Shown here: piece after piece, positions 10,876 to 41,612 of the stretch
Layout of the letters: each line of letters opens with the position of its first letter
Numbering within the stretch: the stretch's first letter is position 1
Assembly (NCBI GenBank): GCA_030428385.1
Contig: JAUIDY010000011.1
Location: 1 to 64,000 of the forward strand
Direction of reading: 5' to 3'
DNA length: 64,000 nucleotides
From: Rhodothermia bacterium
GTDB lineage: Bacteria > Bacteroidota > Rhodothermia > Rhodothermales > JAAAOL01
The notes under the pieces: generated by a model
Seen by the model: the letters and a program-made list of their open reading frames with translations, nothing else
Databases searched by the model: none
What the model was told of the DNA's origin: nothing
Translations under genes and position numbers: made by a program

Positions 10876-11528
10876 ATCCAACACCGAAAGTTAAGATCTG
10901 CTGCATCAGCAGCGTGGAAGAAGCCGAACGGGCTATCGGGCTTGGGGCGTCGGCGCTGGGGTTGGTCTCGGCGATGCCCAGCGGTCCTGGCGTCATCGAG
11001 GAGGCGCACATCGCGGAGATCGCTGCTGCCGTGCCGCCCTCCGTCGCCACGTTTTTGCTGACCAGTCTGCAAGCCACCGACGCCATCATCGCGCAGCATC
11101 ACCGCTGCCCAACGACCACCATTCAACTGGTGGACCAACTGGAAGAGGGGACCTATGCGGATTTGCGGGCGGCCCTGCCCGGGGTGCAGTTGGTGCAGGT
11201 AATTCATGTGACAGATGCGGCGTCTATTCAGGAAGCGGAAACGGCGGCACCGCATGTTGATGCCTTGTTGCTGGATTCTGGCAACCCGAACGCGGTGGTA
11301 AAAACGCTCGGTGGGACCGGCAATACGCACGATTGGGCCCTGAGTCGTCAGATTTGCGACAGGGTGGACGTGCCTGTCTTTCTAGCCGGTGGCTTGCGGG
11401 TGCATAACGTCGCGGCTGCTATTGAACAAGTGCAGCCGTTTGGACTGGATCTGTGTACCGGCGTGCGCACGGACGGGCAACTCGATGAAGCGAAGCTGCG
11501 GGCGTTTATGGACGCGGTGCGCGCCTAA
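10872..11528 (+). CDS. Phosphoribosylanthranilate isomerase-like protein (TrpF family)
   Basis: This 218-residue TIM-barrel protein has the TrpF outline. It opens VKICCISSVEEAERAIGLGA, with the cysteine of the KIC motif that acts in catalysis in the family. The other candidate acid/base residue is Asp in DALLLDSG, and the phosphate-binding end reads GGTGNTHDW, then VFLAGGL, then GLDLCTGVR. TrpF converts phosphoribosylanthranilate to CdRP in tryptophan synthesis. No other trp gene is in the window, and the second strand has CCIS where most TrpF proteins have CGIT or CGLT, so this may be a paralogue with another substrate. It overlaps the CoA-binding gene by four bases and converges on the dehydrogenase gene with a four-base overlap. 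Confidence 0.75.
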   Translation: MNPTPKVKICCISSVEEAERAIGLGASALGLVSAMPSGPGVIEEAHIAEIAAAVPPSVATFLLTSLQATDAIIAQHHRCPTTTIQLVDQLEEGTYADLRAALPGVQLVQVIHVTDAASIQEAETAAPHVDALLLDSGNPNAVVKTLGGTGNTHDWALSRQICDRVDVPVFLAGGLRVHNVAAAIEQVQPFGLDLCTGVRTDGQLDEAKLRAFMDAVRA

Positions 11529-12277
11529 TACGGGGACGGACTCATGGCCGTCCAGCCACCATCTACCACCAGGGTTTGGCCGGTGATGTGCCGTGCCTCG
11601 TCAGAGACAAGAAACACCGCTGCGTTTGCAATGTCGTCGACAGTGGCGGGTCGACCGATGGGGGTGATGCGTGCCCACGTTTTTTCATAGGCGGTGTCTT
11701 CCAGGGTGCGCTCCGTCGCCGTTGCACCGGGCGCAAGGGCATTCACGGTGATCTGAAACGGTGAGAGTTCGGCGACCAGCGTGCGTGCGAGCAGTTCGAG
11801 CGCGGCTTTGGTCATGCCGTAGGCCGCCAGGTTCTGGTGGGCCTGATGCCCCGTCACCGACGACATAAACAACAGCCGACCTCCCGTGCCCTGTTTTTTT
11901 ATCTGCCGGGCAGCCGCCTGCGCGAGAAAAAACGTGCCACCGAGATTCACCTTCAACACGCGGTAAAAGTCTTCTGGGGGATAGGTGAGAAAGTCGCCGT
12001 ACAGCGTGATGCCTGCATTGGCGATGGCAATATCCAGATGGCCGAAGCGGGAGACAGCGGTGTCTACAAGCGTCTGAATCACCTCCAGGTCGCTGCAATC
12101 GCCCGGCACGTCGATACATCTTTCGCCGATTTTCTCTGCCGCCTGCTGAGCCAGGCCGGGATCCAGGTCGTTCAGCACCACGCAGGCCCCGGCGTTGGCT
12201 AACTGGTGCGCAATGGCAAGGCCAATGCCTTGCCCGGCTCCGGTGACAAGGGCAACGCGATCGTGTAGGTTGCTCAT
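11525..12277 (-). CDS. Short-chain dehydrogenase/reductase (SDR)
   Basis: This 250-residue classical SDR has the NAD(P)-binding TGAGQGIGLAIA at the N-terminus, NAG at the end of strand four (IAIANAGITLYG), the catalytic Ser in FMSSVTGH, and Y-x-x-x-K in AAYGMTKAALE. The C-terminus GQTLVVDGGW is standard. It begins three bases after the stop of the SorC-type regulator on the same strand, so the two are almost certainly one transcript. That links it to the sugar regulated by this locus. A sugar 1-dehydrogenase or sugar-acid reductase role is plausible, but the sequence alone does not fix the substrate. Confidence 0.88.
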   Translation of the reverse strand: MSNLHDRVALVTGAGQGIGLAIAHQLANAGACVVLNDLDPGLAQQAAEKIGERCIDVPGDCSDLEVIQTLVDTAVSRFGHLDIAIANAGITLYGDFLTYPPEDFYRVLKVNLGGTFFLAQAAARQIKKQGTGGRLLFMSSVTGHQAHQNLAAYGMTKAALELLARTLVAELSPFQITVNALAPGATATERTLEDTAYEKTWARITPIGRPATVDDIANAAVFLVSDEARHITGQTLVVDGGWTAMSPSPY

Positions 12278-12280
12278 CCG

Positions 12281-13237
12281 TTAATCCGTCTGTAACTGGA
12301 TAGCGGTGGGGTGGTCGGTGATCAAGACGTCGATGAGGCCGCCCCTGATTGCTGCGCGAATTGCCGCCACCTTTTGGGCTCCGCTGGCCACGCCCACAAC
12401 GCGGGGCACCTGCTGCAACGCGTCGAGGGTGATGCCGATGGTGCGTTCGTCCAGCGAGGTAGTCACCGGCTGGCCGTCGGCGTCGAAGAAGCGCATGGCG
12501 ATATCGCCGATGGCGCCCGCCTGCACCAGTGCTTCGTAATCGGCGGCGGGGAGGACAGCGCCGTCGTGTTCAAAAACAGGATTCGTGGAAAGGGCGCCGA
12601 TGCCGACGTACGCCACCGTGAGTTGGGAGAAGAGATCAATCGCGGCCTGCACATAGCGGTCCTTGAGCAAAACGTCGCGGCTTTCGGCGCGGTCTACGAT
12701 GCCCGGCGCAGGAAGCAACGTGAGCGACCCGGCAAGGAGTTGGGCCAGTCGACGCGAGAGGTCGGCGGCGTGGGTCTCGGCCTCTGGCGGTCCGAAGCCG
12801 CCCATCATCTGCACCACCTGGACGTCGTTCGGCGACTGTGGCTGGAGGGACTGCACCAGCGCTTGCAGCGTGCGGCCCCAGGTCACTCCCAGGATGTCGC
12901 CCGCCGCCAGCGTCCGTAGCAGATACGCCGCTGCCGCCGTGCCCAGTTGCTGCCGAAGCATCTGATCGCCACTCGCCGCGTCGGCGTCCACAATCAGCAC
13001 TTCTTCCAGCTTATAGCGCTGTTCGAGGTCGGTTTCCAACTCCAGGAAGCTGCCCCGCGACACCACGTTAATCTGAACGATGCCTTCCTCGCGGGCCTGT
13101 TGAATCAGCCGCGACACCTTGGGGCGCGACACATGCAGCCGGTTGGCGATCTGCTGCTGGGTGTGCTGCTGGAGGTAATACAACTCGCTCACCTTACTCA
13201 GCAGCCGATAGTTGATGGGGTCTTTGGGACGGGCCAT
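12281..13237 (-). CDS. SorC-family sugar-responsive transcriptional regulator
   Basis: This 318-residue protein has an N-terminal helix-turn-helix (YYLQQHTQQQIANRLHVSRP, then KVSRLIQQAREEGIV) and the SorC/DeoR sugar-phosphate-binding domain. Family signatures are GVTWGRTLQALV, VVQMMGGFG, VAYVGIGAL, GDIAMRFFDADG and RTIGITLDAL. It is divergent from the L-rhamnose operon and co-transcribed with an SDR. The 315-bp spacer holds a promoter and several palindromes, so it is the obvious candidate regulator of rhamnose genes and of itself. The inducer is probably a rhamnose-pathway phosphate intermediate, by analogy with the family; this is inference. Confidence 0.92.
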   Translation of the reverse strand: MARPKDPINYRLLSKVSELYYLQQHTQQQIANRLHVSRPKVSRLIQQAREEGIVQINVVSRGSFLELETDLEQRYKLEEVLIVDADAASGDQMLRQQLGTAAAAYLLRTLAAGDILGVTWGRTLQALVQSLQPQSPNDVQVVQMMGGFGPPEAETHAADLSRRLAQLLAGSLTLLPAPGIVDRAESRDVLLKDRYVQAAIDLFSQLTVAYVGIGALSTNPVFEHDGAVLPAADYEALVQAGAIGDIAMRFFDADGQPVTTSLDERTIGITLDALQQVPRVVGVASGAQKVAAIRAAIRGGLIDVLITDHPTAIQLQTD

Positions 13238-13278
13238 GCGGATCGGTTTCGGTGACGGGATATTTAAAATACATGATC

Positions 13279-13300
13279 ATCTGTTCTAAAATGAACAGAT
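13279..13300. promoter_or_regulatory. Palindromic operator near the SorC regulator promoter
   Basis: ATCTGTTC, six AT-rich bases (TAAAAT), then GAACAGAT form perfect eight-base arms. GTTC/GAAC inverted repeats with short AT-rich spacers are typical of DeoR/SorC-type operators. It lies about 40-60 bp upstream of the regulator start codon, fitting autoregulation. A TGATCA lies directly to its left at 13274-13279. Confidence 0.55.
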
Positions 13301-13333
13301 GTGCCCAATTGATCCTGCCTTCACAAGCAATGA

Positions 13334-13362
13334 TTGACAACGAACGTCAGGTTCTGTACACT
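13334..13362 (+). promoter_or_regulatory. Near-consensus promoter of the rhamnose operon
   Basis: TTGACA at 13334-13339 and TACACT at 13357-13362 are separated by 17 bases, close to the general sigma-70 consensus. It points toward the GH79-rhaI-rhaB-rhaD operon, whose first start codon is at 13552. Palindromes begin about nine bases after the -10 box, over the expected transcription start. Confidence 0.6.
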
Positions 13363-13370
13363 TCTAGAAT

Positions 13371-13407
13371 TGATCATGTGATCATTTATGAGCATATGAT
13401 CATAAAT
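13371..13407. promoter_or_regulatory. Operator cluster over the rhamnose promoter start site
   Basis: TGATCA occurs at 13371, 13379 and 13397. Positions 13384-13407 form a 24-base palindrome with one mismatched pair, arms ATTTATGA and TCATAAAT around a CATATG centre. A fourth TGATCA is at 13274. Position just after the -10 box fits repression by the divergently encoded regulator; which of the two palindrome types it reads is not known. Confidence 0.6.
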
Positions 13408-13551
13408 CACTTTGTGAGACTTCGAAAGGAGCGGCACCTTTGCTGCGACGACGCCCGCATCCAGAATCTCGGTCGGGTGCGCGTGGTGGTTCAATAGATC
13501 GGGGAGAAGGCAACACCTGCGGATACCTGACTGAAGCACACCGACTGAAAA

Positions 13552-15159
13552 ATGAAAAAGCACAACGGCGTTTTAACGAGGCTTCTTGCCTTGACCCTGT
13601 TTTTGCCCATCGTTGCCGGTTTGCCTGCCCTTGGGTGGGGACAGGAAGCGCCTGCTGTCTCTGTTGATCCAGCGCAGTTGTCCGCTATCGGGACGGTAGA
13701 CGCACGTTATCAGTCCTACAACGTTGAAATGGTGGAGGTGACAGGGGGGCGGTTCTGGCGCCCGTACGATAGCGTAGCCGAAGACGCGGAGGCGGCCCCG
13801 GCATCAACTGACGGCACGCCGACCGGCCTCGACCCCAGCCTCTACGAGTACCGCCCCCCCGTAGATCTGTCCGATCCGCGACTGCGCACCCTCGCCCGGG
13901 CGCTTGGTCCCGCCTACGTGCGCGTGAGCGGGACATGGTCGAACCGGACCTACGTGCCTGCCGAAAACGAAGAGTCGTCCGCAAGTCCACCCGAAGGCTA
14001 CGGCGGCGTCCTCACGCCGGAGCAGTGGAAAGGCGTGATCGATTTTGCAGACGCCGTGGACGGCGAGATTGTCACCTCGTTTGCCATCGGCACCGGGGTG
14101 CGTGATGCAGAGGGAGACTGGACGTCCGTTCAGGCGGAGCGGCTGCTCAACCTCACACGCGCTCACGGCGGGACGATTTATGCAGCCGAGTTCTTCAACG
14201 AGCCCAACCTCGCGATGATGGGCGGGGCCCCGCAAGGATACGCGGCGGAGGACTACGGGCGCGACTTCCAGCGCTTCCACGATTATGTTCGCAAGGCGGC
14301 CCCGGAGATGCAGGTTGCCGGACCGGGTTCGGTGATGGAGACGACGGGGGACTGGATGCCGAGTGGTAGCCAACTGCCCTTCCTCCTGACTCCTGAACTG
14401 CTCGAAGCGTCGGGCGATACAGATCTGGATGCGTTTTCCTACCACCACTATGGAGCGGTCTCGCAGCGGTGTGCGGGGGCGTTGCAGACCTCGCCCGAGG
14501 AGGCCCTTTCGGAGCAGTGGCTGCGCCGTACGGACGAGACGCTCGCTTTCTACAAACCGCTCCGCGACCAGTACGCACCCGGCGCGCCGATCTGGCTGAC
14601 CGAGACTGCCGAGGCTGCCTGCGGCGGCAATCCCTGGGCGAACACGTTCCTCGACTCGTTTCGTTACCTCGATCAACTCGGTCGCCTCGCCACGCAGGAT
14701 GTCGCTGTTGTTATGCACAACACGCTGGTCGCCAGCGACTACAGCCTGATCCACGAAGACACCCTGACTCCGAAGCCCAGCTACTGGGGCGCCCTGCTGT
14801 GGGAGCGGCTGATGGGCACCACGGTGCTGGATAGCGGCGTCAAGGTTCAGGAGGGGCTTCACCTTTACGCACACTGTATGGCGGATGCGCCCGGCGGCGT
14901 GGCCCTGCTCGTCCTCAACAACAGCCGCACCGAACACTCCATGGTGAGCCTGCCTATTGGTGGGGCTCGCTACACCTTGTCCGCCGATGACGTGCAGGCG
15001 GCGGAGATTTCGCTCAATGGGCAAACGCTACACGTCGGGGCCGACGACACGCTGCCCGAACTCATGCCTGTGCCTTTCTCCAGTGGTGACGTCACGTTTG
15101 CGCCGACAACCATCACGTTCCTGACGGTGCCAGGGGCAAACAATGCAAGCTGCCGTTGA
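13552..15159 (+). CDS. Secreted GH79-like glycoside hydrolase (heparanase/glucuronidase type)
   Basis: The 535-residue protein has a signal peptide (cleavage near GWGQ) and a TIM barrel plus C-terminal beta domain. The clan-A acid/base is Glu217 in FFNEPNLAMM and the likely nucleophile is Glu351 in WLTETAEAACGG. This layout matches GH79 (heparanase and beta-glucuronidases), including the barrel strand AYVRVSGTW and DAFSYHHYG. It is the first gene after the rhamnose promoter, so it probably releases a sugar from a rhamnose- and glucuronate-containing glycan such as ulvan or an arabinogalactan. That substrate is an inference. An unspecific clan-A hydrolase remains possible. Confidence 0.72.
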   Translation: MKKHNGVLTRLLALTLFLPIVAGLPALGWGQEAPAVSVDPAQLSAIGTVDARYQSYNVEMVEVTGGRFWRPYDSVAEDAEAAPASTDGTPTGLDPSLYEYRPPVDLSDPRLRTLARALGPAYVRVSGTWSNRTYVPAENEESSASPPEGYGGVLTPEQWKGVIDFADAVDGEIVTSFAIGTGVRDAEGDWTSVQAERLLNLTRAHGGTIYAAEFFNEPNLAMMGGAPQGYAAEDYGRDFQRFHDYVRKAAPEMQVAGPGSVMETTGDWMPSGSQLPFLLTPELLEASGDTDLDAFSYHHYGAVSQRCAGALQTSPEEALSEQWLRRTDETLAFYKPLRDQYAPGAPIWLTETAEAACGGNPWANTFLDSFRYLDQLGRLATQDVAVVMHNTLVASDYSLIHEDTLTPKPSYWGALLWERLMGTTVLDSGVKVQEGLHLYAHCMADAPGGVALLVLNNSRTEHSMVSLPIGGARYTLSADDVQAAEISLNGQTLHVGADDTLPELMPVPFSSGDVTFAPTTITFLTVPGANNASCR

Positions 15160-15216: not shown

Positions 15217-16497
15217 ATGATGACCGAGCAGGTTGAGCAGCACAATGCATCGCTGGGTGAGGCGCACCGCCGCGATGTGGAACACCTGGGCGAACAACTC
15301 CGGCGGCGAAAGATCGACCTGGAGGCCGTCGTTGCGCAGGTGGCGGCGTTTGAGGTGGCCGTGCCGTCGTGGGCGCTGGGTACGGGCGGCACCCGCTTCG
15401 GGCGCTACCCCGGACCGGGCGAGCCCCGCGACGTGTTCGAGAAGATGGATGACATCGCGGTGATTCAGGGGCTTACCCGCGCCACGCCGCGCGTCTCGCT
15501 GCACCTGCCGTGGGACGAACCCGACAACCCCGCCGCCCTCCGCGATCATGCCTCCGCGCTGGGTCTCGGCTTCGATGCCGTCAACTCAAACACTTTTCAG
15601 GATCAGGCCAACCAGGCGCATTCCTACAAATTCGGATCGCTTTGCCACACCGATGCCGCTGTGCGGGCACAAGCCGTGGCGCATAACATCCACGTGATCG
15701 AGGTGGGCGCAGCGCTGGGGTCGGACGCGCTCACGGTGTGGCTGGCCGATGGGAGCAATTACCCCGGTCAGATGCATCTGCGTAAGAGCTTCGAGCGGAC
15801 GCTGGCAGGCTTGCAGGAGATCTACGCTGCCTTGCCAGATGGCTGGCGGCTTTTCACCGAACATAAGCCCTATGAGCCCGCCTTTTATGCCACGGTGGTG
15901 CAGGACTGGGGCTCGTCGCTGTTGCTGGCGCAGGGTCTCGGCGAGCAGGCGTCGTGCCTGGTGGATCTGGGCCATCACTTGCCCAACACCAACGTCGAAC
16001 TCGTGGTGGCGCGGCTCGTCACGGCGGGCAAACTGGGTGGCTTTCACTTCAACGACAGCAAATACGGTGACGATGACCTGACGGCAGGCTCCATCAAACC
16101 GTACCAACTCTTTCTCGTCTTTAATGAGTTGGTCGACGCTGCACAGGACGGGGTGCTTGGGGCCGACCCGGCGTATATGATCGACCAGAGCCACAACCTG
16201 AAGGACCCAGTGGAAGCACTCCTGATGACGGTGGACAATTTGCAGCAGGCGTACGCGAAGGCGCTGTTAGTGCGCCGTGAGGCGCTGACGCATGCCCAGG
16301 AAACCAACGACGTTGTGATGGCCGAGGCTGTGCTCAAGGCGGCCTATGACACCGACGTACGGCCCCTCGTCGCTGAGGCACGGCGTCGTAGCGGCGGGGC
16401 GCTTGATCCCATCGCCACGTTCCGTGCTTCGGGCTACCGCGCGGCGAAGGCCAACGAGCGGGCGGGCGCGGCCTACATTCCACCGCAGAGCCTTTAA
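15217..16497 (+). CDS. rhaI: L-rhamnose isomerase (RhaI type)
   Basis: This 426-residue enzyme converts L-rhamnose to L-rhamnulose in the cytoplasm. It matches the RhaI form found in Rhizobiales and Bacteroidota rather than E. coli RhaA. Recognisable parts are VPSWALGTGGTRFGRYPGPG, VSLHLPWDEP, the metal-binding LFTEHKPYEPAF, CLVDLGHHLPNTN, FHFNDSKYGDDD and MIDQSHNLKDP. The E, D and H residues expected at the two-metal site are all present. It is the second gene of the operon, followed 31 bp later by the kinase. Start codons at 15217 and 15220 are adjacent and cannot be distinguished. Confidence 0.95.
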   Translation: MMTEQVEQHNASLGEAHRRDVEHLGEQLRRRKIDLEAVVAQVAAFEVAVPSWALGTGGTRFGRYPGPGEPRDVFEKMDDIAVIQGLTRATPRVSLHLPWDEPDNPAALRDHASALGLGFDAVNSNTFQDQANQAHSYKFGSLCHTDAAVRAQAVAHNIHVIEVGAALGSDALTVWLADGSNYPGQMHLRKSFERTLAGLQEIYAALPDGWRLFTEHKPYEPAFYATVVQDWGSSLLLAQGLGEQASCLVDLGHHLPNTNVELVVARLVTAGKLGGFHFNDSKYGDDDLTAGSIKPYQLFLVFNELVDAAQDGVLGADPAYMIDQSHNLKDPVEALLMTVDNLQQAYAKALLVRREALTHAQETNDVVMAEAVLKAAYDTDVRPLVAEARRRSGGALDPIATFRASGYRAAKANERAGAAYIPPQSL

Positions 16498-16528: not shown

Positions 16529-17941
16529 ATGAAACAGTACCTTGCCTTTGACCTCGGCGCTTCGAGCAGCCGCGCTGTCCTTGGGACGCTAAAGGGCGAC
16601 GTGATGCGCTTGGACGAAATCCACCGCTTCATCACCCCCATTCTCGAACAGGGCGACCACTTGTTTTGGGACCTCGGCGTGCTGTGGAACGAACTTCAGA
16701 CGGGTCTCCAGAACGCCCTGGCGGTGGCACCCGGACTGCGCAGCCTGTCAGTCGATTCATGGGGCGTAGACTATGTGCCGCTGGATGCCGAGGGGGAACC
16801 GCTCCGTGCGCCGTATTGCTACCGTGACCCCCGCACCGACGGCATGATGGAACGCGCCTTCAAGACCGTGCCCGCCCAAGAAATCTATGCCCACACCGGC
16901 ATTCAATTCCTGTCGTTTAACACCCTCTATCAGGTGCTGGCCGATGCGGCGGGCGCGCCTGATCTGCTTCAGCAAACGCGGCACCACCTGCCCATCGCCG
17001 ACTATTTTAACTACCGCTTCAGCGGCCACTTTGTCGTCGAGGTCTCGATGGCGAGCACGACACAACTGATGGACGTCCACACCCAACAATGGGCAAAACC
17101 GTTGATGCATGCCTTCGGCCTCGATCCAACCCCGTGGCCTGCGATTGTACCCTCGGGCACGCGGCTGGGGCCCGTCCAGCAGGCTCCCTCGGTGATGACG
17201 GTCGCCACATGCAGCCACGACACGGGCAGTGCCGTTGCCGCCACGCCTGCGACGCAGCCACCGGGCACGTGGGCCTACATCAGTTGCGGCACGTGGTCGC
17301 TCCTCGGCGTGGAGCGGCAGGCCCCGCTCCTGAATGAAGAAGCCCGCACGGCGGGTTTTACGCATGAGGCAGGTGTGGATGGCACCCTTCGCTTCTTAAA
17401 AAACCTGACCGGCCTCTGGACCCTGCAAGAGTGCACCCGCGAGTGGCGGGAGCAAGGCGCGTCCGTCGATTGGGAGACGCTGGAAGACGAAGCCCACGCA
17501 TCAACATCGATTCAAGCCGTCATCAATCTGGAAGACTCACGCTTCCTCGCACGCGGCGGCATGGAGGATCGTCTCCGCGCCTACTGCCGCGAGCAGGGGC
17601 AGCCGGAGCCGCAGACACGTGGTCAACTCGTCCGCCTCATATTGGAAAGCATCGCCGCGAGCTACCGCCGGGCGCTGCAGCACCTGGAGGACCTGACCGG
17701 GCAACGCATCGAAACCGTGCATCTTTTTGGCGGTGGCTCCCAGAACCGGCTGCTGTGTCAACTCACCGCCGATGCCTGCCAGACAACCGTTGTGGCCGGT
17801 CCGGTGGAAGCCACAGCCTTAGGCAACCTGCTCATACAGGCCCGCACGATGGGCGATTTGCCCGACGGCCTCACCATCCGGGAGGTGGCCGCCCGGTCGA
17901 GCCAGCTACAGACCTACAAACCAAGCGATCAATCAGCTTAA
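16529..17941 (+). CDS. rhaB: L-rhamnulokinase
   Basis: This 470-residue FGGY-family kinase phosphorylates L-rhamnulose at O1. The N-terminal phosphate loop is FDLGASSSRAVLGTL, the sugar site contains SVDSWGVDYVPLD and the second ATP domain contains CGTWSLLGVE and LFGGGSQNRLLC. The length and N-terminus agree with RhaB. Its neighbours, isomerase upstream and aldolase downstream with a five-base gap, fix the substrate as rhamnulose rather than another ketose. Confidence 0.95.
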   Translation: MKQYLAFDLGASSSRAVLGTLKGDVMRLDEIHRFITPILEQGDHLFWDLGVLWNELQTGLQNALAVAPGLRSLSVDSWGVDYVPLDAEGEPLRAPYCYRDPRTDGMMERAFKTVPAQEIYAHTGIQFLSFNTLYQVLADAAGAPDLLQQTRHHLPIADYFNYRFSGHFVVEVSMASTTQLMDVHTQQWAKPLMHAFGLDPTPWPAIVPSGTRLGPVQQAPSVMTVATCSHDTGSAVAATPATQPPGTWAYISCGTWSLLGVERQAPLLNEEARTAGFTHEAGVDGTLRFLKNLTGLWTLQECTREWREQGASVDWETLEDEAHASTSIQAVINLEDSRFLARGGMEDRLRAYCREQGQPEPQTRGQLVRLILESIAASYRRALQHLEDLTGQRIETVHLFGGGSQNRLLCQLTADACQTTVVAGPVEATALGNLLIQARTMGDLPDGLTIREVAARSSQLQTYKPSDQSA

Positions 17942-17946
17942 CCATT

Positions 17947-20145
17947 ATGGACACCCAAGCAGTACCATCAAAATACCAATACGTCGAGGATCAGTGGGAC
18001 GACGCCGTTGCCGACGGGCTCGATCCAGTGGCGCGGCTCGTCTACCGCAGCAACCTGCTCGGCAGCGACTGGCGCATCACCAACACCGGGGGCGGCAACA
18101 CGTCCTCGAAGCTCACCGAGCAAGACCCCATCACCGGCGAGGCTGTCGAGGTGTTGTGGGTGAAAGGCTCCGGCGGCGACCTGCGCACCGCCACCAAGGC
18201 CAACTTCGCCTCGCTCTATCAGGAACAGGTGCTGGCGCTCCAAGCGGTCTATGACCGTTTTCCCGAGCGCGGCCTCAAGACACCCGCCGAGGATGCGATG
18301 GTGGCGATGTATCCGCACACCACGTTCAACCTGAACAAGCGTGCGCCCTCCATTGACACGCCGCTCCACAGCTTCATTCCGTACAAACACGTCGACCACA
18401 TGCACCCGGTTGCGGTGATTGCGCTGGCGACGGCGGCAGACGGGCCTGCGCTGTGCCAGCAGGTTTATGGCGACGAGGTCGTCTGGGTCGATTGGAAGCG
18501 CCCCGGCTTTGAACTGGGGCTGGAGATGCAGCGCGTTTGTGAGGAACACCCGGAGGCGAAAGGCATCCTGATGGGCGGCCACGGGCTCATCAACTGGGCC
18601 GACGACGACAAGGCATGTTATCACCTCACGCTCCGCCTCATCGATCAGGCCGCCCAATTTATTGCCAAACGCGATCAGGGGCAGGCAACCTTCGGCGGCG
18701 CACGCTACCAGACGACGGAGGAAGCCGAGCGTCGGCGGATGCTTGTCGAAATTCTGCCGTGGCTTCGGGGACGTGTCAGTTCCGCCCGGCGCATGATCGG
18801 CACCGTCGAGGCATCGGACGCTGTGCTCGACTTCATCAACAGCGAGCGGGCGGGCGAACTGGCTGAACTGGGGACGAGTTGCCCGGATCACTTCCTGCGG
18901 ACGAAAATCAAGCCGCTGTATGTGGACTGGGACCCAGCCTCCGGCGATGTGGACGCGCTAAAAAAAGCGCTCGACGCCGGGCTGGTGCAGTACCGCGAGG
19001 ATTACCGGGCCTACTACGAAGCCTGCAAACACCCCGACTCGCCCGCCATCCGGGGCGGCGACCCGACCGTCGTGCTGATCCCCGGCCTCGGGCTGATCGG
19101 CTGGGGCAAGTCGAAAAGCGAAAGCCGTGTCACTGCCGAGTTTTACAAGTGCGCCATAGAGGTGATGCGCGGGGCCGAAGCGGTGTCGTCGTATACCGCC
19201 CTCGTGCGGCAGGAGGCGTTCGACATCGAATACTGGGCGCTGGAAGAAGCCAAGCTCCAGCGGATGCCGCCAGAAAAAGAACTTGCCCGCCAGATTGTTG
19301 CCGTCGTGGGAGCCGGAGGCGGGATTGGCGAGGCCGTCGCCCACCGTGTGATCCGTGAAGGAGCCGTTGTGGTAGCCGCCGACCTCCGGTCCGGCACCGC
19401 AACGGCCACAGCGGAGGCGATGATGCAACAGATCGGCATGGGCATCGGCGTGGCCGGCACCGGGATCTCCGGCGCAGGCGACGTGATCGGGCTCGGCTGC
19501 GACATGACGGACCGCGCCTCCGTGCGCGAAGCGCTGGCCGACGCTGTGCTGGCGTACGGCGGCATCGATCATGTCGTCGTCACCGCGGGTCTGTACGTCA
19601 GCCCCGACACCGAGGGCCGCATCCCCGATGCCAAGTGGGCCGACAGCTTCCGCGTCAACGTCACCGGGCCGTTCCTGGTGGCCGACGAAGCGGCGAAGAT
19701 CTGGGCGGCGCAGGGACTTTCGGGGTCGCTGGTTGTGACCACAAGTGTTAACGCGGTTGTGCCCAAAAAAGGCAGTTTCGCCTACGACACCTCGAAGGCG
19801 GCGACCAACCATCTTGTCCGCGAACTGGCGGTGGCGCTGGCCCCGCATGTCCGCGTCAACGCCGTGGCACCGGCGTCGGTGGTGGAAGGCTCGGCCATGT
19901 TTCCGCCGGAACGGGTGATTGCTTCGCTGGCTAAGTACGGTCTGCCTTACGACGACGGCGAAGACGACCAGACGCTCCGCACCCGCCTTGCTCAGTTTTA
20001 TGCCCAACGTACGCTCACGAAGCAGCCCGTCACCCCGGTGCATCAGGCCGAAGCCGTTTTCCTGCTCGTCTCGGATCGGCTGGGGCGGACAACGGGGCAG
20101 GTGCTCAACGTCGACGGCGGCCTCACGGAAGCCTTCCTCCGGTAA
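17947..20145 (+). CDS. rhaD: Bifunctional rhamnulose-1-phosphate aldolase / L-lactaldehyde dehydrogenase
   Basis: This 732-residue fusion has a class II aldolase domain (about residues 1-430) and an SDR domain (about 450-732). The aldolase part shows NTGGGNTSSKL, VKGSGGDL, the metal histidines in HVDHMHPVAV, and MGGHGLINWADDD. The SDR part shows VVGAGGGIGEAVA, the SVNAVVPKKG and Y-D-T-S-K catalytic stretch, and LNVDGGLTEAF. It splits rhamnulose-1-phosphate into dihydroxyacetone phosphate and L-lactaldehyde, and the second domain oxidises lactaldehyde to L-lactate. The reading frame is open much farther upstream inside rhaB, but the ATG at 17947 gives the conserved N-terminus. LutABC follows directly. 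Confidence 0.94.
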   Translation: MDTQAVPSKYQYVEDQWDDAVADGLDPVARLVYRSNLLGSDWRITNTGGGNTSSKLTEQDPITGEAVEVLWVKGSGGDLRTATKANFASLYQEQVLALQAVYDRFPERGLKTPAEDAMVAMYPHTTFNLNKRAPSIDTPLHSFIPYKHVDHMHPVAVIALATAADGPALCQQVYGDEVVWVDWKRPGFELGLEMQRVCEEHPEAKGILMGGHGLINWADDDKACYHLTLRLIDQAAQFIAKRDQGQATFGGARYQTTEEAERRRMLVEILPWLRGRVSSARRMIGTVEASDAVLDFINSERAGELAELGTSCPDHFLRTKIKPLYVDWDPASGDVDALKKALDAGLVQYREDYRAYYEACKHPDSPAIRGGDPTVVLIPGLGLIGWGKSKSESRVTAEFYKCAIEVMRGAEAVSSYTALVRQEAFDIEYWALEEAKLQRMPPEKELARQIVAVVGAGGGIGEAVAHRVIREGAVVVAADLRSGTATATAEAMMQQIGMGIGVAGTGISGAGDVIGLGCDMTDRASVREALADAVLAYGGIDHVVVTAGLYVSPDTEGRIPDAKWADSFRVNVTGPFLVADEAAKIWAAQGLSGSLVVTTSVNAVVPKKGSFAYDTSKAATNHLVRELAVALAPHVRVNAVAPASVVEGSAMFPPERVIASLAKYGLPYDDGEDDQTLRTRLAQFYAQRTLTKQPVTPVHQAEAVFLLVSDRLGRTTGQVLNVDGGLTEAFLR

Positions 20146-20160
20146 ACCCGTTGCACCCCG

Positions 20161-20901
20161 ATGCGCGTCGCCCTTTTCGTTCCCTGCTACATCGATCAGT
20201 TGTACCCCGCCGTGGCTCGTGCTACGCTGGAGGTGCTGGAGCGGCAGGGATGCACCGTCTCCGTCCCGCTTGGGCAGACGTGCTGTGGACAGCCCATGGC
20301 AAACGCCGGATTCGAGGCAGGAAGTGTGGGGACGATGCAGCGATTCGTGGACCTTTTTGCAGATTTCAACTACATCGTCGCGCCCTCTGGGAGTTGCGTG
20401 GCGCACGTCCGTGAGCATTACAAACGGCTCCCTCAGAATGACGCCGTTCAGCATGTCCGCGCCCGCACGATGGAGTTGTGCGAATTTCTCACCGATGTGC
20501 TGGGCGTCGAACAACTCGATGCCCGGTTTCCGCACCGCGTGGGGCTACACGAAAGCTGCCACGGGCTGCGTGGGCTTCGGCTGGCGTCGTCGTCGGAGCT
20601 TCAGGTGCCGCGTTTCAGCAAAGTCCAGCGGCTGCTCGAACTGGTCGATGGCCTCGAACTGGTTCCACTCGACCGGGCCGATGAATGCTGCGGCTTTGGG
20701 GGGACCTTTGCCGTCACGGAGGAGGCGCTGTCGGTCAAGATGGGGCGCGACCGCCTGCGTGACCATGTGGCGCACGGAGCCGAGATCATCACCGCCACCG
20801 ACATGTCGTGCCTGATGCATCTGGGCGGTCTGGCGCGGCGGCAGCAGATGCCGGTGCAGATTCGCCACGTCGCCGAAATCCTCCGGGGAGAAGATGGATG
20901 A
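20161..20901 (+). CDS. lutA: L-lactate oxidation protein LutA (Fe-S, CCG-domain)
   Basis: This 246-residue protein of the LutA/YkgE family has two CCG-type cysteine-rich domains: TCCGQPMANAG near residue 40 and ECCGFGGTFAV near residue 180. Additional cysteines lie in GSCVAHV, HESCHGL and MSCLMHLGG. With LutB and LutC it oxidises L-lactate to pyruvate. It starts 15 bp after rhaD on the same strand, so the lactate made by the rhamnose branch can be consumed by the same operon. A family B palindromic repeat separates it from lutB. Confidence 0.93.
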   Translation: MRVALFVPCYIDQLYPAVARATLEVLERQGCTVSVPLGQTCCGQPMANAGFEAGSVGTMQRFVDLFADFNYIVAPSGSCVAHVREHYKRLPQNDAVQHVRARTMELCEFLTDVLGVEQLDARFPHRVGLHESCHGLRGLRLASSSELQVPRFSKVQRLLELVDGLELVPLDRADECCGFGGTFAVTEEALSVKMGRDRLRDHVAHGAEIITATDMSCLMHLGGLARRQQMPVQIRHVAEILRGEDG

Positions 20902-20937
20902 TAGTATTTCCGAGGTATAGCAGTGCATAGAATAAAG

Positions 20938-21054
20938 TGTCATGCTGAACCATGTCCTGAACTTGATTCAGGATCTTTCAGCATCTCAGCTTCCTGCGTT
21001 GAGATTCCGACACGAACGAAGTGACTGACGCAGTAATCGAGTTCGGAATGACAC
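20938..21054. repeat. Dispersed palindromic repeat, family B, copy 1
   Basis: The unit begins TGTCATGCTGAAC and ends GTTCGGAATGACA, with internal palindromes such as CTGAACTTGATTCAG. It shares both ends and the GCGTTGAGAT core with the copy at 25305-25374. It sits inside the lut operon between lutA and lutB. Confidence 0.7.
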
Positions 21055-21091
21055 ATCCTTCAACTTTGCACACGAATTTTTCAGAACTGGT

Positions 21092-22519
21092 ATGAGCACG
21101 CCGCTTCCCGAAATACCATTGCCTGTCATCGACCACGCGGCGGCAGCGGCCCGCTTCGTGGCAGACGAGGCCCGCACCAACTGGCACGATGCGTCGCTGT
21201 GGCAGGTGCGGCAGAAGCGCGACCGCGCCGCGCAGGCGGTGCCCGAGTGGGAAGCCCTGCGCGACCTTGCCTCCAAGATCAAGGCGCACACCCTTTCTCG
21301 CCTCGATGAATACCTGGCCCAGTTCGAGGAGCAAGCGACGGCGAATGGCATCCAGGTGCATTGGGCCAAAGACGCCGCCGAGCACAACCAGATTGTGCAT
21401 GCGATTCTGGCCCGCCACGGTGTGCAACGGCTCGTCAAGAGCAAGTCGATGTTAACGGAAGAGTGCGGACTGAACCCGTACCTCGAAGCGCAAGGCATCG
21501 AGGTGGTAGATACCGACCTCGGCGAACGAATTGTGCAACTGGCGGGCGAAGGACCGAGCCACATTGTGATGCCCGCCATCCATGTGAAAAAAGAGGAGAT
21601 CGGGGCGCTGTTTCATGAGAAGATCGGGACGCCCGCCGGAGAGGCCGATCCGGGGCGACTGACGGAGGCGGCGCGACAGCACCTCCGCGCCCATTTCCTT
21701 AGTGCGGATGCCGCACTCACGGGAGTCAATTTTGCCATCGCCGAGACGGGCGGGTTTGTGGTTTGCACGAATGAGGGCAACGCGGACCTCGGCGTACACC
21801 TCACCCCGGTGCATATTGCCAGCATGGGCATCGAGAAGATCATCCCGGCTGCCGAGCATCTGGGCGTGTTTCTGCGGCTACTGGCGCGCAGTGCCACGGG
21901 GCAGGACCTCACGGTCTACACGTCCCACTTCCATCGCCCCCGGCAAGGGCAGGAACTGCACGTGGTGCTGGTGGACAACGGGCGAAGCGCCCACCTTGGG
22001 CGTGCCGATTTTCGCGACGCGCTGAAATGTATCCGCTGTGGGGCGTGTATCAACACCTGCCCCATTTACCGGCGCAGCGGCGGCCACAGCTATGGCTCGA
22101 CGGTGCCCGGCCCCATCGGCTCCATCCTCACGCCGGGCATCGACCTCAAGAAGTACCAACACCTGCCCTTTGCATCAACGCTGTGTGGCTCGTGTGGCGA
22201 CGTGTGTCCGGTGAAGATCGACATCCCCGGTCAACTCTATCGATGGCGGCAACTCGTCACCGAAGAAGGGCACGCGGGACGCAGCAAGCGCCGGGTGATG
22301 GCGGTGGCAGGGCAAATCTTCAGGAATCCGCGCCTCTTTCGATGGGCGGGGAAGTTGGGCCGCCGTCTGCTTCGGTGGTTACCGCAGCGCGCCGTCTATC
22401 ACCAGCGAAACGTGTGGGGTCGGGCGCGTGACTTGCCAGAACCACCACGCCAGAGCTTCCTCGAATGGTATGCCGCACATCGTTCAGACAACGCGAATAA
22501 AAAGGGGCACGACCAATGA
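21092..22519 (+). CDS. lutB: L-lactate oxidation iron-sulfur protein LutB
   Basis: This 475-residue LutB/YkgF protein has an N-terminal LUD-type domain and two [4Fe-4S] motifs: CIRCGACINTCPIY near residue 313 and CGSCGDVCPVKIDIP near residue 366. Other family blocks are KSKSMLTEECGLN, TDLGERIVQLAGE, PSHIVMPAIHVKKEEI and ETGGFVVCTNEGN. It is the central electron-transfer subunit of the LutABC L-lactate dehydrogenase complex. It overlaps lutC by four bases. Confidence 0.95.
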   Translation: MSTPLPEIPLPVIDHAAAAARFVADEARTNWHDASLWQVRQKRDRAAQAVPEWEALRDLASKIKAHTLSRLDEYLAQFEEQATANGIQVHWAKDAAEHNQIVHAILARHGVQRLVKSKSMLTEECGLNPYLEAQGIEVVDTDLGERIVQLAGEGPSHIVMPAIHVKKEEIGALFHEKIGTPAGEADPGRLTEAARQHLRAHFLSADAALTGVNFAIAETGGFVVCTNEGNADLGVHLTPVHIASMGIEKIIPAAEHLGVFLRLLARSATGQDLTVYTSHFHRPRQGQELHVVLVDNGRSAHLGRADFRDALKCIRCGACINTCPIYRRSGGHSYGSTVPGPIGSILTPGIDLKKYQHLPFASTLCGSCGDVCPVKIDIPGQLYRWRQLVTEEGHAGRSKRRVMAVAGQIFRNPRLFRWAGKLGRRLLRWLPQRAVYHQRNVWGRARDLPEPPRQSFLEWYAAHRSDNANKKGHDQ

Positions 22520-23100
22520 GCAGCCGCGATGCCATTTTGCAGGCCGTTCGTCAGAACCGCCCCGATCCCGTTCCACGCCCGCCCACGCCCTTGTTCGCGT
22601 CGCCCGACGAAGGGTTGACTACAGCGTTTGTCGAGGCGCAGAAGCGTGCGGGGGGCACCGTTGTATCCACCACCGCCGATGCGATAGCCACCTTGCTGGA
22701 CGCTCGTTTTCCCGATGCCCGCGTCATTGCTTCAACCGCAGGCGATATTGTAGCAGGATCGATGGATTTACACGCCGTCGCCGATCCGCACGAACTAGCC
22801 GATCTGGACTTGCTCGTCTGCCGAGGTGTGGTTGGGGTGGCGGAAAATGGCGCGATCTGGATTCCCAAGGCGCATCTTGGGCACCGCGCCGCGCTGTTCA
22901 TCGCGCAGCACCTTGCCATTGTGCTCGATGCCAATGCGCTGGTTTGGAACTTGCACGACGCCTATGCCCGAATCGACGTTGCCGAGGACAGCTTCGGGGT
23001 GTTTGTGGCGGGGCCTTCCAAGACTGCCGATATCGAGCAGTCGCTGGTGATTGGCGCCCACGGACCGCGCAGCCTGACGGTGTTTTTGCTTACCGAGTAA
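22516..23100 (+). CDS. lutC: L-lactate oxidation protein LutC
   Basis: This 194-residue LUD-domain protein matches LutC/YkgG. Visible blocks are a short N-terminal helix (SSRDAILQAVRQNRP), VVSTTADAIATLLDARFPDA, CRGVVGVAENGAIWI and AGPSKTADIEQSLVIGAHGP. The start overlaps the lutB stop (ATGA), implying coupled translation. It is the last gene of the rhamnose-lactate block; the TonB receptor converges on it with only eight bases between stops. Confidence 0.93.
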   Translation: MSSRDAILQAVRQNRPDPVPRPPTPLFASPDEGLTTAFVEAQKRAGGTVVSTTADAIATLLDARFPDARVIASTAGDIVAGSMDLHAVADPHELADLDLLVCRGVVGVAENGAIWIPKAHLGHRAALFIAQHLAIVLDANALVWNLHDAYARIDVAEDSFGVFVAGPSKTADIEQSLVIGAHGPRSLTVFLLTE

Positions 23101-40034: not shown

Positions 40035-41612
40035 ATGCGTGAACCACTCCCCCCGCGACGTTTCAAGGAGGCTTCGGGTGAGCTTCAGGCGGATGCGTTG
40101 GAATTGCTTCTGACGCAGCGACTGGATACGGTTGTGAAGTTGGTGCATCAGGTGCTGGGTGCGTCTCAGGTTGTTGCTTTGTGGCAACTTGCCGGGCAAA
40201 CCGTTATCGGCCCGGTAGCAGGAAACGGCATGAAGGAAGTGGGAGGCCTGACGGCATGGTGGCACGACCTCCAACAAGAGATGGGAACGGTAGTGGCGCT
40301 TAAAAAAAAGCCCACGGCCAAGGACGAACACGCAGGAACCGAGGGAGGAATAGGGATTGCTTTTAAGGCAACGGGCTTTGCTGGTGGCTTGCTTGCCTTT
40401 GGTTCTAGCCCGCAGGACTTTGACTCGGAGCAAAAGCAGCAGCTTGCTGCTTTCAGCGAGGTGATGCAAGACCATGTTAAGCTCCTTGTGGCACAATACA
40501 AAGCGGAAGTAGCTGGAGAGAGCCGGTGGCGGCATCTCGTAGAGCAGCACCCAGAACCTATCTTGATATGCCACCAGGGAAGCATTGTCTATATCAACCA
40601 GGCCGGTGCGCACATGCTAGGTGCAGAAGGTCCTCAGCACCTGGTGGGGCAGCCCCTTTCTGGGTTTGTCGCTGGCGATACGCCTTTGTTGATGCAGCAA
40701 CACCTGGAAGCCATTGAGCAAGGAAAAAGGCTTGCTGCGCAGGACTTTGATGTGTGCGGACTCGATGGTAAGAAACGACGCATCCGGACGCATTCAGCGC
40801 CCATCACCTTTCAAGGAAAACCGGCCACACAGTCGGTATGGCGTGACGTAACGACGCAGCATGCTTATGAACGGGAGTTGATCGAAGCGAAGGAGCGGGC
40901 CGAAGAAATGGATCGGCTCAAGACGACGTTCTTAATGAATATCAGCCATGAAATCCGTACCCCCTTAACCTCCATTCTAGGGTTTTCGGAAATTATTGCC
41001 GATGAGTCGGAAGGCGAGTTGCGGATGCAGGCCCACCTCATTACCGACAGTGGCAACCGGTTGATGACCACCCTCAATGCGCTGTTGGACCTGGCAGAGA
41101 TGGAAGGGAAAATGATGCACCTGAGCCCTCAACGTACCGATGTGGTGGAGCAGGCCCTGCGGGTGCTCTACCTCTTCAAGCGCAAGGCTCAGGACCGAGG
41201 GTTGGTGCTGCGCCTTTCGGTGCCGCGTGGCCACTCGGTATATGCCTACCTCGATCAGCGTGCCTTGGGCCGGGTGCTGGAGAACCTGGTCAGCAATGCC
41301 ATTAAGTTTACCCACCAGGGCACCATCGAACTGACCATAGAGGTCGTATCTGACGACCTGTTCATTCACGTCGATGATACAGGGATCGGTATTACGCCCA
41401 CGTTTGTCGAGCAGTCGTTTGAGGCGTTTCAGCAAGAATCACAGGGCATTCAGCGCATGTATGAAGGCAGTGGGCTGGGGCTTACACTGGCACGGCGCTT
41501 CGTGGAACTGATGGGAGGCACCATTGATGTGAAGAGCGAAAAAGGAAAAGGCAGCCGGTTTACGGTCTACCTGCCCGGTGTGGTGTTTAACAGTTCAACA
41601 GCTTTCTTCTAA
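40035..41612 (+). CDS. PAS-domain sensor histidine kinase
   Basis: This 525-residue soluble kinase has a GAF-like N-terminal region (about 15-150), a PAS domain (about 155-275; WRHLVEQHPEPILICHQGSI), a HisKA box with the phospho-accepting His near 304 (FLMNISHEIRTPLTSILGFS), and an HATPase domain with N (NLVSNAIKFTHQG), G1 (VDDTGIGI) and G2 (GSGLGLTLARRFVELMGG) boxes. No transmembrane helix or receiver domain is present, so the signal is cytoplasmic and the response-regulator partner is not adjacent. Glycosyltransferase genes follow at about 110 bp on the same strand. Confidence 0.92.
   Translation: MREPLPPRRFKEASGELQADALELLLTQRLDTVVKLVHQVLGASQVVALWQLAGQTVIGPVAGNGMKEVGGLTAWWHDLQQEMGTVVALKKKPTAKDEHAGTEGGIGIAFKATGFAGGLLAFGSSPQDFDSEQKQQLAAFSEVMQDHVKLLVAQYKAEVAGESRWRHLVEQHPEPILICHQGSIVYINQAGAHMLGAEGPQHLVGQPLSGFVAGDTPLLMQQHLEAIEQGKRLAAQDFDVCGLDGKKRRIRTHSAPITFQGKPATQSVWRDVTTQHAYERELIEAKERAEEMDRLKTTFLMNISHEIRTPLTSILGFSEIIADESEGELRMQAHLITDSGNRLMTTLNALLDLAEMEGKMMHLSPQRTDVVEQALRVLYLFKRKAQDRGLVLRLSVPRGHSVYAYLDQRALGRVLENLVSNAIKFTHQGTIELTIEVVSDDLFIHVDDTGIGITPTFVEQSFEAFQQESQGIQRMYEGSGLGLTLARRFVELMGGTIDVKSEKGKGSRFTVYLPGVVFNSSTAFF

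Follow-up and report, generated by a model that had tools for sequence, protein, structure and literature searches.

Two operator-like sites, A and B, lie between a divergently oriented regulator gene and an L-rhamnose operon in the window (the whole 64-kb stretch of DNA analysed here), and they are most likely two copies of one conserved site, a candidate target of the divergent regulator. By its sequence, this regulator is a SorC-family relative of DeoR from Bacillus subtilis; it probably forms tetramers and is best read as a SorC-type repressor of L-rhamnose catabolism, which would also control itself. It seems highly probable that A and B form a single type of site for a SorC-family tetramer, with repression at B, autoregulation at A and release by rhamnulose-1-phosphate. 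The shared structure of the sites, their conservation, their position and their link with the regulator clade and RhaEW were read from sequence; binding, tetramer, repression, autoregulation and effector are what we infer. If true, rhamnose catabolism of this group gains a regulator family that was not found described for it, together with an operator that lends itself to searches and tests. The spacer studied separates the regulator gene from a GH79-like gene (13552-15159, plus strand) and is organised as follows.

12281-13237, minus strand: SorC-family regulator (DeoR subclass), proposed rhamnose repressor
13274-13305: operator A, a pair of 14-bp units with 4 bp between them, located 36 bases ahead of the regulator start codon
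13334-13339, plus strand: -35 hexamer TTGACA
13357-13362, plus strand: -10 hexamer TACACT, with a predicted transcription start near 13369
13371-13402: operator B, likewise a pair of 14-bp units with a 4-bp gap, which follows the -10 hexamer at a distance of 8 bases

The element shared by A and B consists of two 14-bp palindromes, TGAWCA-N2-TGWTCA, separated by 4 bp (a period of 18 bp) and covering 32 bases overall. Site A reads TGATCATCTGTTCT-aaaa-TGAACAGATGTGCC and site B TGATCATGTGATCA-ttta-TGAGCATATGATCA, the unit beside the expected start being TGATCATGTGATCA (13371-13384); a single consensus is matched at 21 of 24 positions by A and at 23 of 24 by B. A sequence-only reading of this DNA had pointed to a cluster of four TGATCA in about 130 bp, and this cluster is real. 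TGATCA occurs at 13274, 13371, 13379 and 13397, i.e., four times in 129 bp. This exceeds chance: within 129 bp, 300 random first-order Markov sequences of 64 kb never held more than two, and four never occurred in 20000 shuffles of 13260-13410. The same reading had placed a 24-base palindrome over the start site. Such a palindrome exists (13384-13407, 12-nt arms 92% complementary), but it begins about 15 bases downstream of the expected start. It had also described a different palindrome near the regulator. The palindrome CATCTGTTC/GAACAGATG (13278-13286 and 13293-13301) is indeed present, with 9 of 9 pairs, but it belongs to the same 14+4+14 element and is not a different operator; ATCTGTTC/GAACAGAT is the junction in copy A, where the right half of one unit faces the left half of the next.

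Footprinting of the regulator spacer in relatives, which had been advised as a check, revealed that both the structure and the position of the site are conserved. Among 60 near genomes, 5 had a match to the regulator; a phylum draw gave 14 of 394 (both counts include the window's own genome) and the class 22 of 243. These genomes are related, so that counts in relatives are not independent. In 14 relatives, a second unit located 18 bp before the strong unit reaches a mean score of 8.14 vs 4.04 (sd 0.71) over the tested offsets, the half-site consensus used for picking units having been written after viewing the window and the relatives, which favours this result. One of these 14 spacers (G314) has 5 bp between its units.

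A matrix built from the 14 relatives, with the window left out, gives its two best places in the 64 kb at B, which ranks first (31.7 bits on the minus strand, 29.9 on the plus strand), and at A (25.1 bits). The scores of 100 random windows averaged 11.8 and peaked at 24.2 bits, a maximum that B exceeds widely and A only narrowly. Relative to local base composition, A scores 21.7 vs a shuffle threshold of 8.8. In the same way, G504, a genome outside the matrix set, carries a site scoring 15.7 vs a threshold of 5.4. These data bear on the suggestion that the spacer holds two operator types read by two regulators. A and B do differ at first sight (TGTTC/GAACA vs TGATCA). However, they share the 14+4+14 structure, one relatives-only matrix detects both, a single site of a relative can contain both TGAACA and TGATCA, and the regulator has a single match in its own genome (E <= 0.001). 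The common structure and the common matrix lead us to reject two types, whose existence appears very improbable. Among the options proposed earlier, separate sites for repression and for autoregulation fit best, but with one kind of site.

The genome search that had been advised for both motifs was run as one joint 32-base pattern fitted to A and B. With up to three mismatches, it retrieved from the 6.19-Mb genome only A, B and one further place (position 19814 of contig C65, three mismatches), and the backward control of the pattern gave no match in this genome. The place in C65 (22.9 bits) overlaps the start of a gene that looks methylmalonyl-CoA epimerase-like by eye, and it was taken as probably a chance match.

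In wider samples, the exact pattern TTCA-N4-TGAWCA-N2-TGWTCA has 12 matches in 11 of 21 genomes with the regulator and none in 20 without it. Allowing one mismatch makes this short pattern non-specific (38 matches in the 21 regulator genomes vs 39 in the 20 others). Each of the 21 examined genomes whose regulator ortholog is near-complete has at least one site, a count reached because the genomes of L043, L044, L045, L046 and L018 carry the site elsewhere, before a gene for an ECF sigma factor. By matrix, the regulator spacers of L043, L044, L046, L018 and the decayed L005 have no site, and that of L045 has only a weak place (7.8 bits vs a threshold of 6.0). G479, whose regulator is 43% identical and cut by the contig end, was omitted from the counts; it has the SRP motif of the recognition segment (see below) and one lone TGAACATATGTTCA 0.9 kb upstream.

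The promoter proposed from the sequence, TTGACA-N17-TACACT, was confirmed at 13334-13362, where it agrees with the consensus at 10 of 12 positions. It had been called unusually E. coli-like. It is rare in the window, since at least 10 of 12 matches occur in only two places over both strands; the other is TTAACA-N17-TAAAAT at 41587 on the plus strand. However, 6 of 14 relatives have an exact TTGACA in the corresponding 60 bp (after shuffling, the mean count is 0.23 and the highest 3), and the upstream region of G504 reads TTGACA-N17-TATCAT. Being in the same place in these genomes, TTGACA is a conserved part of an orthologous promoter and not an oddity. In Bacteroidota, promoters follow TTG-N19-TAnnTTTG; several Balneolaceae-type relatives have a -10 reading TAAATT, which with their TTG also fits this form. 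(The Balneolaceae label rests on L006, a named record whose locus is identical to G216.) In 12 of 14 relatives, a permissive search without a control of its own found a promoter of the type TTG...-N16/17-TA...T that ends 4-7 bp ahead of the operator, as compared with 8 bp in the window; it gave none in L002 and L011. For the regulator gene, no consensus promoter was found in the window; in G003 and G017, the candidates are weak and lie within the site.

The position of the sites suggests how the switch could work. As each operator is a tandem pair of 14-bp palindromes, two DNA-binding dimers would fit on it, which probably belong to one tetramer, as in DeoR and CggR. Site B spans about +3 to +34 from the expected start, so a protein bound there would sit on about 30 bases at the beginning of the rhamnose transcript and block initiation. 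By binding to A, close to the start codon of its own gene, the protein would limit its synthesis; the location of A, 36 bases before this codon, suggests such autoregulation, although no consensus promoter was found for the regulator gene. The protein would be released by a phosphorylated sugar; given the pathway encoded, the likeliest candidate is L-rhamnulose 1-phosphate. A SorC-type protein acting as an activator, or mainly so, is a decidedly unlikely alternative: B lies behind the -10, and in 12 of 14 relatives the sites likewise follow the promoter, which is a place for repressors, and no supporting point for activation was found in this analysis. Since B folds at the 5' end of the leader (13369-13551), its inverted repeat could also be read as an RNA hairpin. 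However, the stability of this leader is ordinary (z -1.30, 18 of 200 shuffles being as good), and A, which lies outside the transcript, has the same structure; an RNA element was thus rejected and is hardly credible.

Repression from B and autoregulation from A could be complemented by a loop, in which one or more tetramers bound to A and B would hold the promoter across about nine helical turns. The distance between A and B is 97 bp in the window, 95 bp in G011 and 94 bp in both G003 and G017, i.e., in three families, and SorC-family proteins are tetramers according to excerpts of PMC11229326. However, G003 and G017 belong to one genus, G504 has no A at a window-like distance from B by matrix, so that the A-B spacing is not conserved there, and Balneolaceae-type spacers have a single site only. 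Furthermore, a search on SorC or LsrR with DNA looping found nothing on such a loop in the parts of the literature covered. Looping is therefore a possibility that we consider rather doubtful.

The regulator carries the C-terminal sugar-binding domain PF04198 that defines the SorC family (240.3 bits vs a cut-off of 27, E 2.6e-71) and, in Pfam, also an HTH. Among solved structures, B. subtilis DeoR is the closest (8r7y, E 5.7e-50, aligned over the full length), and residues 11-57 of its N-terminal HTH align with the DeoR DNA-binding domain 7bhy, as expected for the DeoR subclass. With respect to orthology with DeoR, it scores 254.8 bits vs a cut-off of 420 for the NCBIfam equivalog NF053881, which places it outside the DeoR equivalog. 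The operator of two half-operators that SorC tetramers recognise is seen here on the DNA side only, as tandem units at 18 bp. A recognition segment, SRPxVSR, is invariant in 21 of 21 regulators, and its two arginines correspond to the base-contacting R34 and R39 of DeoR, a match that assumes a 5-residue tag in the DeoR crystal chain.

In excerpts of PMC11229326, R34 and R39 of DeoR contact bases, and its dra-nupC-pdp operator comprises two halves bound by a tetramer, with TGAACA/TGTTCA half-sites. The system of the window thus resembles DeoR in its SorC subclass, the base-contacting arginines, the TGAACA/TGTTCA half-sites, the two-half operator and a repressor encoded beside the operon. It differs in the spacing of the units (22 bp for DeoR vs 18 bp), in the position of the operator (-60 to -21 for DeoR, behind the -10 for B) and in the effector, which is deoxyribose 5-phosphate for DeoR and would be L-rhamnulose 1-phosphate here. 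The operator of CggR/gapA is also comparable, with a SorC effector domain, a tetramer on two tandem palindromic half-operators and a transcribed site, whereas CggR has another DNA-binding domain, another half-site and a glycolytic target (same excerpts).

The genes behind operator B link the system with rhamnose catabolism.

13552-15159, plus strand: GH79-like glycosidase, first gene behind operator B (PF03662, 38.9 bits, cut-off 23.1)
15217-16497, plus strand: rhaI, L-rhamnose isomerase (TIGR02629, 639.9 bits, just under the cut-off of 646.75)
16529-17941, plus strand: rhaB-like rhamnulokinase (TIGR02627, its best family, 446.3 bits, under the cut-off of 527.95)
17947-20145, plus strand: rhaEW, rhamnulose-1-phosphate aldolase/dehydrogenase (TIGR02632, 980.9 bits, over the cut-off of 567.75), start chosen by eye
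20161-23100, plus strand: lutA-, lutB- and lutC-like lactate oxidation genes (20161-20901, 21092-22519 and 22516-23100; PF02754, PF02589)

Among these genes, only the product of rhaEW passes an NCBIfam equivalog cut-off; the LutB match stays under its own (421.2 vs 444.8 bits) and the lutC-like gene has no NCBIfam match. RhaEW over the cut-off is encoded by 20 of the 22 genomes with the regulator and by none of the 20 without it (the first listed of the class survey rather than a random draw), so that, across genomes, the occurrence of the regulator and of the sites follows that of rhamnose genes. The earlier proposal of an operator cluster at an L-rhamnose promoter, with another site near the regulator gene, is supported; the cluster is probably read by the divergent SorC-type protein. 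The two regulator genomes that lack such a RhaEW are G445 (76% complete) and G044. In the latter, a regulator remnant adjoins remnants of lutB and lutC (L025, 10448-11324), and it looks like the whole rha locus was deleted; no site was found in the stretch taken from this genome, whose regulator is decayed.

In relatives, the divergent genes encode, by eye, GH78, RhaM-like or SusC-like proteins or an ECF sigma factor; Pfam confirmed seven ECF proteins and the GH78 encoded beside the G003 spacer. In the window's own genome, no operator above 14 bits was found in the stretches taken near three GH78-type matches, nor in those near a homolog of a protein of the rha cluster that has no Pfam match and is membrane-like by eye. 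This homolog (L102, about 11020-13895, G000:C58) lies beside a GH78-type gene, at a large distance from the rha operon.

Known rhamnose regulators belong to other families. Rodionova et al. (2013; PMC3870299, consulted as excerpts) described RhaR and RhaS of the AraC, DeoR and LacI families, which, as proposed for the regulator of the window, control rha operons, including those with RhaEW, and their Bacteroidetes example is of AraC type. The motifs differ, those of DeoR-family RhaR being tandem repeats and those of the LacI family 20-bp palindromes. This paper has no SorC-family member and the word SorC is absent from it. In excerpts of PMC8579813, the only paper found in a search on the SorC family together with rhamnose, SorC refers to CggR, and those of PMC5507952 contain no mention of SorC. 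More generally, no SorC-type rhamnose regulator was found in the portions searched of a literature that includes PMC3878776 and lies mostly outside RegPrecise and subscription papers.

In 14 of the 16 Balneolaceae-type genomes with the regulator, a gene whose product shares 44-60% identity with the ECF factor of G262 lies directly behind the operator (L026, L027, L029, L030, L032, L033, L034, L082-L084, L086, L088-L090). It was not found there in the stretches of G244 and G443, in the window or in the stretches from the window's order. With the operator in this position, an alternative sigma factor might come under the control of a sugar-phosphate signal from the cytoplasm, which would be an unusual wiring; a literature search on the SorC family with ECF sigma factors found no paper. 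Tentatively, and with somewhat less than even confidence, a clade of SorC L-rhamnose repressors with 18-bp-period operators can be proposed, which may form loops in the window's order (94-97 bp) and transmit a sugar-phosphate signal to an ECF sigma factor in these relatives.

Five outgroup SorC proteins (L007, L008, L009, L019 and L049) have QA in place of RP in the recognition segment. In four of the five loci, TGAATA-N2-TATTCA lies 48-173 bp upstream; a TGAATA-type 14-mer of Labrys (L009), about 8 kb from the regulator, was not counted. Thus, SRP goes with TGAACA half-sites in the rhamnose regulators and SQA with TGAATA in L007, L008, L019 and L049, which provides a testable recognition rule for SorC proteins.
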